Below, one piece after another: positions 5,657 through 9,003 of a stretch of DNA of 64,000 nt. The translations under genes were made by a program, and so were the position numbers. The DNA comes from Ensifer adhaerens. Lineage in GTDB: Bacteria; Pseudomonadota; Alphaproteobacteria; Rhizobiales; Rhizobiaceae. Position 1 is the stretch's first letter. Each line of letters opens with the position of its first letter. The stretch lies in NCBI RefSeq assembly GCF_002007205.1, contig NZ_LAZS01000005.1, positions 1,178,001 through 1,242,000 on the forward strand. The letters are read 5' to 3'. A model generated the notes under the pieces. The model saw nothing but the letters and a program-made list of their open reading frames with translations, made no database searches and was not told the origin of the DNA.

Positions 5657-6244
5657 TCAATAGAGAGGTTCTTCGTAGACCGGGCTTCCATTGACCGCGA
5701 TCTCGCGGATCTGCGCCTTTCCCCTGGCGTCGACGCGTATGTTGACCGAGAGCGCCTCGGCGTTGCGCGCCTCTTCCAGCGTCCGCCCCTCGCCTTCCGG
5801 CACATAGAAGCGCTCGATCCCGTATTCGACATTGACGGACGATGGGGAGGACGAGGGATAGTAGACAAACGGCAAGGAGCGAAGGACGATGCTGTCGCCG
5901 GCCGGGCTAAGCGGCTGGAAGGACGCTTCGGTCGCGGCCCAGAAGCCGTCGAGCTGCTTTTCCAGGCGAACGTAGACCTGCGCCTCTTCCGTCTCCTTCG
6001 GCGTATCGCCCTTGAACAATTCCGGCTGGAGCCTGGAAATATCGTAGCTCAAGATCACATAATCGCCCCGAAGCAGATCACGCGGATCGACAGGCACGGT
6101 CTTCAGCAGCACGTCACGGCCGCTTCTGAGGATCGAAGCCCTGCCCTCTATCATGTAGCCAAGCGCCGCCGTCTGCACGCCCGCAACCAACAGGGCCGCG
6201 AGCAGCGGGTTCAGCCAACGGGATTTCTGCTCCGACTTCGTCAT
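5657..6244 (-). CDS. GDYXXLXY domain-containing membrane protein
   Basis: A 195-residue protein with one N-terminal membrane segment (about residues 11-30, WLNPLLAALLVAGVQTAALG), then a domain outside the cytoplasm containing the family signature GDYVILSYDI near residue 60. The biochemical role of the family is not known. The gene overlaps the upstream DUF2157 gene by 4 bases (ATGA), so the two are almost surely translated together; this pairing is typical of the family and suggests a membrane complex. The start is the ATG within the overlap. No terminator is obvious after the stop. Confidence 0.85.
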   Translation of the reverse strand: MTKSEQKSRWLNPLLAALLVAGVQTAALGYMIEGRASILRSGRDVLLKTVPVDPRDLLRGDYVILSYDISRLQPELFKGDTPKETEEAQVYVRLEKQLDGFWAATEASFQPLSPAGDSIVLRSLPFVYYPSSSPSSVNVEYGIERFYVPEGEGRTLEEARNAEALSVNIRVDARGKAQIREIAVNGSPVYEEPLY

Positions 6245-7350
6245 TGTGGCGCCTCCGTCCGGCGCGCATTCGCCAAGTGGCCTTCGATGCGGATGACGAT
6301 CCAGGCGATGCCTGCAACGACCAAGCCCGAAATCAGGAAGAAGCCTGACGTGCCGAGCATCGAGCCGAGGGTTTCGAAGGCAAGATAAAGTAGCTCGCCG
6401 GCAAAGGCCACGTAGCCGAGATAGCGCACCGCCCCGTTTTGCGCGCCGGCAAGCGCGATCCCGAGAAGAGCCACCAGCAACGTGCCTGCCCCGGTCAGGA
6501 CCTCCGTCGCCAGCCCCTCTGCCTCATATTGAAGGGTCGTGAAACCGAGCAGGGCCAGCGCGAAGGAATAGAAGGCGGGCGCCGAACCGGCATCGACCGC
6601 CAGAGCGCGAAGTGGCGAACCGGGCAGCGTCGCCGCCAGAAAGGCCAGGAGACCGAACGCCGCAAGGCCACCGGCAAAGGCGACCGACGCGTTGTCGAGG
6701 TAAAGCCAGGCGAGCCACGACAGGACGAGCAGATAGGCGAGATGACGGGCTCGGTCGGCGGCCGTGAAGCGGACCAGCAGAACGACGATCACGGCGAGCG
6801 CCGGAACGGACCACATGCGCCAGTCCGGCGTGGCGCTGAACCCGTCGTCTTTCAGCACCGTCCCGAAATAGAACCAGGCAAGCCCGCCCGCAACTGCGGC
6901 CATTGCTGCGGAGCGAAATGCCAGGGCGGAGAGGACGGCGCCGGCAAACCACAGCAGCGCGGCATCGGCCGCGTCCCCCGACAGGTGATACATCTGCCCG
7001 ATAAGTGCGATGCCGCCACCGAAAGCAGACGCCCCCAAAACGAGCGCCGCTGCGGCGAGTGTCGTTCGGCCGGTCTTAATCAGCCAGGCGGCGGCGAAAT
7101 GGAAGCCCCAGACCAGGGCGACGATGCCGGCCACCCGCGCAAGGCGCGGCAGCGCCTCCCAGTTGGCGGCGACAAGCAGGAGGATTGAAGCGGACAACAG
7201 GAGCGCGGCGAGAATGAGCAGGACGCGCCCGGCCCGGAACGTCGACTCGCGACCGTCATACTCGGCCAGCATTGCGCGTGCCGCATTCTCCTGCAGCAGT
7301 CCCTTGTCGATCCAGTGCTTGAAGTCTCGTTCGAGACGCGCGCGGTACAT
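6241..7350 (-). CDS. DUF2157 domain-containing polytopic membrane protein
   Basis: A 369-residue integral membrane protein. The first 40 or so residues are soluble and include the DUF2157 signature (LERDFKHWIDKGLLQ, then AARAMLAEYDGRE). About ten hydrophobic segments follow from residue 40 to the end, for example VLLILAALLLSASILLLVA. It is the first gene of a two-gene operon with the GDYXXLXY protein (4-base overlap). No catalytic motif is visible and the function is unknown. The 5' side faces the small-RNA locus, which is transcribed divergently. Confidence 0.85.
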   Translation of the reverse strand: MYRARLERDFKHWIDKGLLQENAARAMLAEYDGRESTFRAGRVLLILAALLLSASILLLVAANWEALPRLARVAGIVALVWGFHFAAAWLIKTGRTTLAAAALVLGASAFGGGIALIGQMYHLSGDAADAALLWFAGAVLSALAFRSAAMAAVAGGLAWFYFGTVLKDDGFSATPDWRMWSVPALAVIVVLLVRFTAADRARHLAYLLVLSWLAWLYLDNASVAFAGGLAAFGLLAFLAATLPGSPLRALAVDAGSAPAFYSFALALLGFTTLQYEAEGLATEVLTGAGTLLVALLGIALAGAQNGAVRYLGYVAFAGELLYLAFETLGSMLGTSGFFLISGLVVAGIAWIVIRIEGHLANARRTEAPQ

Positions 7351-7500
7351 CCTGCCCCCAGCCTAGAATCCGATGCTTGAAATGGTTCGGTTCAGCTCCC
7401 AACTAACCACGTATCGGCGCGGAAACACAATCGCCCTGCAGGAATTGCGCACCAAACCGATGAGGACGAATGAACGGCTTGCGCAATGCGCATATCTTCC
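7351..7500. other. Intergenic start of the small-RNA locus
   Basis: I see no gene in this stretch. It holds the divergent promoter region for the DUF2157 operon on the minus side and leads into the small-RNA locus on the plus side. The gap to the next large gene (trmFO) is about 1.75 kb, filled by two small RNAs and two DUF1127 genes. Confidence 0.6.
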
Positions 7501-7524
7501 ATGCGGATATTGCACTGCACAAAT
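7501..7524 (+). promoter_or_regulatory. TGCA-rich upstream element, copy 1
   Basis: ATGCGG, four bases, then TGCACTGCACAAAT. The 14-base core is repeated exactly at 8735-8748, also preceded by ATGCGG. The CTGCAC part coincides with the proposed -35 box of the promoter at 7515-7543. The core starts about 140 bp before the first hairpin of small RNA 1. Its role as a binding site is inferred. Confidence 0.4.
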
Positions 7525-7543
7525 CGATTTAAAGGTCCTATAT
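7515..7543 (+). promoter_or_regulatory. Candidate sigma-70 promoter for leader ORF and small RNA 1
   Basis: CTGCAC at 7515-7520 and CTATAT at 7538-7543 are 17 bases apart. CTATAT matches the -10 form common in Sinorhizobium and the -35 matches CTTGAC at 4 of 6 bases. Predicted start is near 7550, which would give about 100 bases of leader before the first hairpin. This is a prediction only; the mature RNA could also arise by processing. Confidence 0.4.
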
Positions 7544-7569
7544 TCAAATCATCAAAGGCGAACGAAGGC

Positions 7570-7620
7570 ATGAAGCCAGACGGTCGCCGGCGGAAATGGC
7601 CAACCGCCTCAGTTTTCTGA
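7570..7620 (+). CDS. Possible 16-codon leader peptide upstream of small RNA 1
   Basis: ATG at 7570 opens MKPDGRRRKWPTASVF and stops at TGA 7618-7620, about 30 bases before the first hairpin. AAAGG lies 11 bases upstream of the ATG, with a second purine run closer to it. It is rich in Arg/Lys. It does not match the DUF1127 signature. In Rhodobacter a small DUF1127-type ORF precedes the CCUCCUCCC-motif RNAs on one transcript, so a short ORF in this position is worth recording, but chance is a real alternative. Confidence 0.25.
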   Translation: MKPDGRRRKWPTASVF

Positions 7621-7639
7621 GAAAGGCCCGGGCAGAACC

Positions 7640-7774
7640 CGACGGAATTCGGACGAGCGCACTCCTCCTCCCAGCGCTCTTCCGATCAGATTGGCAACAC
7701 TCCTCCTCCCAGTTGCCAATCACTCCTAATGACGCTCGCTGGACCTCCTCCCCCAGCGGGCGTTATTCTTTTTT
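7640..7774 (+). ncRNA. Small RNA 1 with three anti-Shine-Dalgarno hairpins (cuckoo / CCUCCUCCC-motif family)
   Basis: Three consecutive hairpins. Hairpin 1 (7650-7684) pairs CGGACGAGCGC with GCGCTCTTCCG, one mismatch. Hairpin 2 (7689-7721) pairs GATTGGCAAC perfectly with GTTGCCAATC. Hairpin 3 (7732-7763) pairs ACGCTCGCTGG with CCAGCGGGCGT and is followed by TTATTCTTTTTT, a Rho-independent terminator. Every loop contains CCTCCTCCC, complementary to Shine-Dalgarno sequences. Two to four hairpins each showing this motif define the cuckoo RNA family of Alphaproteobacteria, which includes the Rhodobacter CcsR RNAs and often sits near DUF1127 genes, as here. The exact 5' end is uncertain. A role in sequestering RNA-binding regulators or blocking ribosome binding sites is inferred. 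Confidence 0.8.
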
Positions 7775-7813
7775 CGACCCCCCTTTCCACAAAGAAGCCT
7801 GCGTCTGCGCATC

Positions 7814-7830
7814 TGCACAATATTCGTGCA
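7814..7830 (+). promoter_or_regulatory. TGCA-rich upstream element, copy 2 (dyad)
   Basis: TGCAC-AATATTC-GTGCA, an inverted repeat with 5-base arms, begins about 120 bp before the first hairpin of small RNA 2. It shares CTGCACAA with copies 1 and 4. A binding role is inferred from its recurrence. Confidence 0.35.
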
Positions 7831-7927
7831 TAATTTCGTTGCGCCTGCTCTCTGCCATGCGCTGGATGCATAGGTGCCATTCTGGAACAGCGCTACCCTT
7901 CCGCCCTGCTCCATACTATCTTCAACT

Positions 7928-8060
7928 CATCGATCGGGGCGGCGCACTCCTCCTCCCAGCGCCCCTCGATTTGGATCGGCGACACTCCTCCTCCCGGTTG
8001 CCGATCAGAACAAAGCGACGCTCGCTGGATCTCCTCCCCCAGCGAGCGTTGTTTGTTTTT
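7928..8060 (+). ncRNA. Small RNA 2 with three anti-Shine-Dalgarno hairpins (cuckoo / CCUCCUCCC-motif family)
   Basis: Paralogue of small RNA 1, about 280 bp downstream on the same strand. Hairpin 1 (7933-7970) pairs ATCGGGG-C-GGCGC with GCGCCCCTCGAT with one bulged C. Hairpin 2 (7974-8006) pairs GATCGGCGAC with GTTGCCGATC. Hairpin 3 (8018-8049) pairs ACGCTCGCTGG perfectly with CCAGCGAGCGT and leads into TTGTTTGTTTTT. Loops 1 and 2 carry CCTCCTCCC; loop 3 has TCTCCTCCC, one base different. Stems differ between the two copies while loops and terminator stay the same, as expected if the loop is the working part. A -10-like CTATCT at 7916-7921 would place a start near 7928, but no convincing -35 precedes it. 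Confidence 0.8.
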
Positions 8061-8154
8061 GGTCCCAGATTTCGGGCAGCATCCCCAGCCGCTAAAACTC
8101 GATTTTTGCCACGCGTTCTAACGTCACCCGCGATCGCACCATGGCGCAGAGGCT

Positions 8155-8180
8155 TGCACGGTCTGCATGGGTGCGATGCA
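8155..8180 (+). promoter_or_regulatory. TGCA-rich upstream element, copy 3
   Basis: TGCAC, TGCAT and GTGCGATGCA follow within 26 bases, about 130 bp before the start of the first DUF1127 gene. It is the least similar of the four elements. A CTATAT (-10 form) lies downstream at 8212-8217, about 70 bases before the ATG; its -35 is weak. Confidence 0.3.
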
Positions 8181-8286
8181 GCATTGTCTCTGTAACTTCT
8201 GCTCAAAACGACTATATTCCAGAGCATCAGATGACGGCCAGCAAGAGAGATGAGCGCTGGCACACGACCCTAGAAAGGATAGGATC

Positions 8287-8430
8287 ATGAACCTCGCACG
8301 TTCTTTCAACAATTGGCGCAAGTATCGTCAGACCTGCAACGAACTCGGCCGGATGACCGACCGCGAACTGTCTGACCTCGGCATCGGCCGCGGCGACATC
8401 CCGTACGTTGCCCGCCAGGCGATCAAGTAA
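8287..8430 (+). CDS. DUF1127 small arginine-rich protein, copy 1
   Basis: A 47-residue protein made of one DUF1127 domain. It begins MNLARSFNNWRKYRQT and has the family signature ELxxLxDxxLxDIGxxRxDI as ELGRM...ELSDLGIGRGDI. The AGGATAGGATC site directly precedes the ATG. It is followed by a hairpin terminator at 8467-8502, so it is a single-gene unit. About 38% of residues are identical to the second copy at 8860. DUF1127 proteins are abundant, often stress- or phosphate-responsive, small proteins; roles in RNA turnover and carbon/phosphate metabolism have been reported in Agrobacterium and Rhodobacter. Its position next to CCUCCUCCC-motif RNAs is conserved in other Alphaproteobacteria. Confidence 0.92.
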   Translation: MNLARSFNNWRKYRQTCNELGRMTDRELSDLGIGRGDIPYVARQAIK

Positions 8431-8859: not shown

Positions 8860-9003
8860 ATGAACCCGATTCGTATCGCAAAAAGCTGGATCAACTACCG
8901 CCGCACCGTCAGCGAGCTCGGCAACCTGTCGAACCACGCTCTCAATGACATCGGCATCACCCGCTACGACATCCGCAACATTGCGGCCCGTTCCTTCCGT
9001 TAA
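8860..9003 (+). CDS. DUF1127 small arginine-rich protein, copy 2
   Basis: A 47-residue single-domain DUF1127 protein, [16 protein letters not shown]..., with the signature ELGNL...[12 protein letters not shown] and a basic C-terminus ending RSFR. TTGAGGAAAAGACC precedes the ATG, a good ribosome binding site. It has its own terminator at 9031-9058. It is the same length as copy 1 with conserved Trp, Tyr-Arg, ELG and DxG-IxRxDI positions, consistent with an old local duplication. The gap to trmFO is about 100 bp and the terminator separates the two. Confidence 0.92.

Follow-up and report, generated by a model that had tools for sequence, protein, structure and literature searches.

Two tandem ar14 (NfeR1-type) small RNAs and a DUF1127 gene of Ensifer adhaerens appear to share an LsrB-type promoter switch

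A 64-kb stretch of the Ensifer adhaerens genome (hereafter the window) carries two small RNAs of the ar14 family in tandem on the forward strand, copy 1 at 7644..7768 and copy 2 at 7929..8054, each consisting of three hairpins with anti-Shine-Dalgarno (aSD) loops. We consider it highly probable that these are two trans-acting ar14 (NfeR1) RNAs with three aSD loops each, forming a single LsrB/VtlR-controlled cluster with a downstream DUF1127 gene. The RNAs themselves are ordinary members of an already known family. The part worth following is the LsrB-type switch that copy 1, copy 2 and the DUF1127 gene appear, from their promoter sequences, to have in common; a literature search reaching few subscription papers found none that places ar14 copy 1, NfeR1 and DUF1127 under one box, and in that sense the shared switch is a new detail.

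A covariance-model search, proposed as a check when the locus was first described, places both units in Rfam family ar14 (RF02344, cut-off 58.8 bits), copy 1 with 115.4 bits (E 1.2e-20) and copy 2 with 103.7 bits (E 4.6e-18), and both matches are full-length, covering positions 1-123 of the 123 in the model. The family is present in 16 of 16 genomes of the genus and in 0 of 14 control genomes; counting the window's own genome, matches were found in 78 of 81 genomes of the bacterial family and in 40 of the 121 genomes of the order search. In each of the 16 genus genomes the two RNAs and the beginning of DUF1127 hold the same position (the protein could be read in 15 of them), and within the genus copy 2 is better conserved than copy 1, with 114 of 126 against 102 of 125 ungapped columns invariant over 16 loci. 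The extent originally given, 7640-8060, does hold both hairpin units, but the units reach further, with the copy-1 promoter at about 7480-7544.

The loops of both units, three hairpins each, read (C)CUCCUCCC, a sequence that we take to resemble the anti-Shine-Dalgarno end of 16S rRNA. By folding, hairpins a, b and c of copy 1 lie at 7649..7685, 7689..7721 and 7728..7767, and those of copy 2 at 7932..7971, 7974..8006 and 8009..8057, all on the + strand, the last with the loop UCUCCUCCC. Six CTCCTCCC loops fall in the region (positions 1522, 1560, 1602, 1807, 1845 and 1888 of locus sequence L001), and CCTCCTCC occurs six times on both strands of the 64-kb window, five of them inside the sRNA region, the sixth loop reading TCTCCTCCC instead. 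The original observation that all six loops carry CUCCUCCC and five of the six a longer form is therefore exact by motif count. As evidence the bare count is weak, at least six CCTCCTCC being reached in 3 of 100 shuffles of the window. Folding is far more distinctive, with z values of -10.3 for copy 1 and -7.1 for copy 2 and none of 200 dinucleotide shuffles as good, and together with the RF02344 matches this upholds the proposal of two tandem structured sRNAs with three hairpins each. As in ar14, the three hairpins carry CCUCCUCCC loops on variable stems, with one of the six loops being UCUCCUCCC; judged on loops and stems, the units are also of cuckoo type, that is, hairpin modules in which the CCUCCUCCC loop is conserved and the stem sequence is free. 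The pair of stems quoted earlier as an example of compensation was correctly read; one of its changes affects both sides of the stem (T-A to C-G), the other a single side (A-T to G-T).

In each unit the third loop-bearing hairpin is followed by an interrupted T tract, an arrangement that would serve as a terminator, and hairpin c is likely the terminator stem in copy 2 and likely has this role as well in copy 1. The strong terminators first proposed would be this combined element and are not separate structures. A simple terminator scan of the + strand, which allows loops of 3-8 nt, did not return the third hairpin, whose loop is 10 nt.

An alignment of 52 homologues, from which 15 loci below cut-off (L059-L073) and two weak copies of the window's own genome were excluded, gives a covariation score of 0.498; shuffles average 0.212, and sliding the partner columns brings the score no higher than 0.148. 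Stem cells are paired in 85.5% of cases (67.9% in shuffles, at most 48.3% with partners slid), and 292 cells show two-sided changes, where shuffles give 100.9 and slid partners no more than 123. Less telling is the number of pairs with at least one two-sided change, 29 of 31, slightly more than shuffles give (mean 25.0; level reached by 2 of 500). Pairing differs by hairpin, at 68.2% in a, 87.1% in b and 98.8% in c, and 16 of the 18 invariant columns fall in the three loops. Covarying stems around fixed loops, the pattern that an alignment of relatives had been expected to reveal, are thereby borne out, and the invariance of the loops fits the suggestion that they are the working part. That the repeats are instead part of a protein-coding gene, a 199-aa ORF at 7596-8195 whose frame is open in the window, is extremely improbable: over 18 loci the spanning ORF is not conserved in relatives, its open length over hairpin a ranging from 0 (7 of 18 loci) to 378 codons, and the stems covary as RNA. 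The coding reading was dropped; the RNAs are real by structure and by descent.

The gene order of the window, tig, tRNA, two ar14 RNAs, two DUF1127 genes and trmFO, is that of the NfeR1 neighbourhood and of the Sinorhizobium meliloti Ak57 record CP090106 (locus L101). Both DUF1127 genes encode 47-aa proteins on the + strand, the first at 8287..8430 (PF06568, E 2e-16) and the second, an ORF just upstream of trmFO, at 8860..9003 (PF06568 match at G000:C18:1186872-1186976). Unlike L101, the window has two membrane-type genes, GDYXXLXY and DUF2157, separating the tRNA from the sRNAs (5657-7350, - strand); in L101 the tRNA and copy 1 are only 467 nt apart. Record CP090106.1 is titled S. meliloti plasmid pSymB, yet at 3.7 Mb and with tig and trmFO it is probably a mislabelled chromosome.

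Copy 2 is the orthologue of S. meliloti NfeR1 (Smr14C2, SmelC397; RF02344), as shown by the shared neighbourhood and by NtrC-type and LsrB-type boxes at approximately the published positions. SmelC397 and NfeR1 are equated in PMC7143759. The two have in common the family, the three aSD hairpins, tig and trmFO nearby, and both boxes at equal distances from the -10 element; they differ in that here the -10 is CTATCT, the LsrB-type box starts TGCG, and two extra genes separate tRNA and sRNAs. In L101 the sequences TGCATCACTTGCAT and TGCCCATTATTTCGGCA before copy 2 fit the LsrB and NtrC motifs given in PMC10746234, at about the positions reported there, and in the window the NtrC motif is exact while the LsrB motif TGCA-N6-GCAT has G for A at base 4.

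Copy 1 is most likely the orthologue of SmelC398 (sra38, Sm7), to which it was matched by table coordinates and length. In PMC2873474, SmelC397 is listed at 124 nt and SmelC398 at 217 nt, on the same strand and 151 nt apart, a spacing close to that of the ar14 matches in L101 (155 nt). Copy 1 has the position and strand of SmelC398 upstream of NfeR1, and the listed length fits a long leader. Since 217 nt would agree with a start just past the -10 element at 7538, copy 1 should carry a leader of about 95 nt before its three hairpins, giving a putative transcript of about 217-222 nt at 7551..7772 on the + strand. The transcript of about 130 bases expected earlier from either locus misfits copy 1 on this account. 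RNAalifold predicts hairpins in the leader (7551-7645, 18 loci), one of them with two two-sided pair changes; overall, two-sided changes occur in 3 of 18 pairs with a covariation term of 0.1, and folded as a single sequence the leader does not stand out (z -1.36; 21 of 200 shuffles do as well). Northern analysis in S. meliloti is reported to give a reliable signal from one of six ar14 copies (PMC7143759), so copy 1 may be weakly expressed.

Pattern matching places an LsrB-type box before all three genes on the + strand. Copy 1 has TGCG-N6-GCAT at 7480..7493, 58 bp before the -10 CTATAT (7538..7543); copy 2 has TGCG-N6-GCAT at 7858..7871, 58 bp before the -10 CTATCT (7916..7921), and an NtrC-type box TGC-N11-GCA (motif from PMC10746234) at 7814..7830, 102 bp before the same -10; and the first DUF1127 gene has TGCA-N6-GCAT at 8155..8168, 57 bp before the -10 CTATAT (8212..8217). 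These spacings of TGCR-N6-GCAT are kept at copy 1 in 18 of 18 loci, at copy 2 in 16 of 18 and at DUF1127 in 18 of 18, the loci being 16 from Ensifer (the window's included), which are close relatives and not independent trials, one from S. meliloti and one from Sinorhizobium sp. C101. For one locus (L008) an alternative -10, GTACCTT, was added to the pattern, and by the patterns used the copy-2 box is absent from two of the 18 (L011 and L013). Over the same loci the six bases of the box spacer vary freely at copy 2 and DUF1127. In 17 of 18 loci an NtrC-type box lies 102 bp ahead of the copy-2 -10, and the pattern used found none at the copy-1 promoter; TGC-N11-GCA alone is weak evidence, since the + strand of the window has 41 matches, including one at 8164 inside the DUF1127 promoter.

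It is the spacing that makes the LsrB-type box informative. Without it the box is no commoner than chance: the window has 9 matches where 7.75 are expected, and 39 of 100 shuffles have at least 9. Among the nine -10-like sites on both strands of the window, the only ones with the box 20-119 bp upstream are the three of copy 1, copy 2 and DUF1127. In the whole 6.87-Mb genome TGCR-N6-GCAT-N44-YTATMTT occurs twice and the N43 form once, all at this locus, and the backward patterns have no match; having been fitted to the known sites (R for A; YTATMTT/NTATMTT), the patterns show rarity elsewhere and are not independent finds. A shorter shared motif, TGCATRGGTGCNAT, was tried and rejected: its 2 exact matches are both at this locus, and with at most one mismatch it has 8 matches in total against 2 backward.

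The published VtlR/LsrB box is GCAT-N3-TG-N3-T (PMC8844928, PMC7486931). It overlaps the LsrB-type boxes of copy 2 (7868-7880) and DUF1127 (8165-8177), is exact in 17 of 18 loci at the former and in 18 of 18 at the latter, and is one mismatch (TT for TG) from the copy-1 box. Genome-wide, five sites combine it with a -10 at the right distance: copy 2, DUF1127, an ar14 copy on contig C21 and two other genes. One of the latter (L128, G000:C18:1769039-1769093, - strand) precedes a small ORF of about 50 aa, and the other (L129, G000:C19:81275-81327, - strand) lies before what by eye is a superoxide dismutase-like gene, which would fit the redox role reported for LsrB. The C21 copy (L130, from G000:C21:508002 on) has an LsrB-type box and -10; read by eye, it also has a fourth aSD hairpin upstream, of the kind described for SmelA099. 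Taken together, the boxes suggest that LsrB would act on copy 1 and on DUF1127 in this species as well. Control of DUF1127 genes in this way is not new in kind, since VtlR is reported to activate three DUF1127 genes in Brucella (PMC12595884) and the small-protein gene atu1667 in Agrobacterium.

The DUF1127 association extends well beyond the window. Of the 56 best-scoring ar14 loci examined, the order search supplied 29 and the family search 27. A DUF1127 gene lies within 1.5 kb in 39 of them (16 of 29 and 23 of 27, respectively), always on the same strand (39 of 39); the best match precedes the RNA in 28 and follows it in 11. Such a gene was not found within 1.5 kb in 17 of the 56 by a profile which, being built from two rhizobial sequences, may miss distant members. 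The window's genome has eight DUF1127 genes in 6.87 Mb, and if other genomes are similar, proximity by chance would be well under 1%. An LsrB-type box stands within 200 bp upstream of the DUF1127 start in 23 of the 39 loci, the backward pattern in none; by the pattern used, 16 of the 39 starts have no box, which argues against a universal rule. At two loci (L046, G084:C59; L097, G174:C10) a DUF1127 gene is followed by three ar14 copies in tandem.

Association of DUF1127 genes with aSD-loop sRNAs has been published as the CIN1 locus (PMC10253847), and both DUF1127 genes of the window (8287-8430 and 8860-9003) are so placed. The CIN1 example CcsR1-4/CcaF1 of Rhodobacter sphaeroides, also cuckoo RNAs, shares with the window aSD loops, tandem copies and a DUF1127 neighbour. 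There, four RNAs are reported to be co-transcribed with ccaF1 from an RpoHI/RpoHII-driven promoter and cut by RNase E (PMC10253847), whereas here the RNAs have separate -10 elements, precede DUF1127 and have three hairpins each, and on sequence the locus does not display the co-transcription with DUF1127 from a single RpoH-type promoter that marks CcsR proper. The original assignment to the cuckoo/CcsR family therefore holds for cuckoo-type RNAs, but not for CcsR itself, which is a different, Rhodobacter arrangement.

These neighbours raise the alternative of a chiefly protein-bound mode of action, through a DUF1127/CcaF1-like protein or Hfq, in which pairing with mRNA would come second. The adjoining DUF1127 gene here and in 39 of the 56 loci would fit such a role, as would the report that Rhodobacter CcaF1 binds RNA and matures the CcsR RNAs (PMC10253847). 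We nevertheless judge it unlikely: NfeR1 is reported to be Hfq-independent (PMC10746234), which weakens the earlier idea of an RNA-binding protein as far as Hfq is concerned; mutation of its three loops abolishes ntrB silencing in S. meliloti; no evidence was found that Salmonella YjiS binds RNA; and Agrobacterium DUF1127 proteins are reported to act on PhoR.

For trans-acting mRNA pairing, the published work on NfeR1 is the closest guide, and it renders outdated the earlier remark that function in these bacteria is little known, as targets, regulators and a mutant phenotype are in print (PMC10746234, PMC7143759). According to these two papers, the three loops of NfeR1 redundantly silence mRNAs by pairing where translation starts, most of the predicted targets are ABC transporters, ntrB is a tested target, NfeR1 is activated by LsrB and repressed by NtrC, and its loss impairs salt tolerance and nodulation. 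Multivalent pairing with mRNAs, as first suggested, is thus supported. Because loops and promoter boxes are the same in the window, the NfeR1 mechanism is the best reading for this species by analogy: each ar14 RNA would expose three CUCCUCCC hairpin loops, any of which could pair with the ribosome-binding site of a target and stop translation, the three providing redundancy, with transporters as the probable main targets. A candidate ntrB of the window's genome (best NF008293 match, 184.6 bits, below the cut-off of 240) has modest complementarity to the loop at its start region, -12.0 kcal/mol in a simple duplex fold with no control. AbcR1/AbcR2 (ar15) resemble the locus in being a tandem pair with aSD motifs, transporter targets and one LsrB-controlled copy, but belong to another family, are Hfq-bound and have two aSD motifs.

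Six near-identical aSD loops at one locus, and seven ar14 matches in the genome, five above cut-off, could also suggest a sponge that soaks up mRNA leaders or other pairing RNAs wholesale without regulating chosen targets. Target-specific reporter regulation by NfeR1 has been published, however, and the upstream sequences vary between the ar14 copies of this genome, so that a sponge is quite improbable. Under the preferred NfeR1-type mechanism the two genes, having different promoters, could differ in timing. LsrB likely activates copy 2, as NfeR1, and NtrC likely represses it; copy 1 would be a longer RNA from a conserved promoter with an LsrB-type and no NtrC-type box; and the downstream DUF1127 gene, with an LsrB-type box at almost equal spacing, would complete one LsrB/VtlR-controlled cluster.

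More tentatively, and as a reading less likely than not, we propose an LsrB/VtlR module conserved across much of the Rhizobiaceae, in which a redox- and nitrogen-linked regulator would switch on, in phase, both RNAs and a small arginine-rich helper, DUF1127, that may aid their processing or delivery as CcaF1 does for CcsR. If this is true, the box would predict members of the module in rhizobial genomes. That NfeR1, the neglected SmelC398 next to it and a DUF1127 gene are all preceded by one box in a common phase is a testable link, and suggests why DUF1127 genes and aSD-loop RNAs often co-occur in Rhizobiales. It would unite nitrogen control through NfeR1, host interaction through VtlR/LsrB and DUF1127/CcaF1 in a single regulatory unit.
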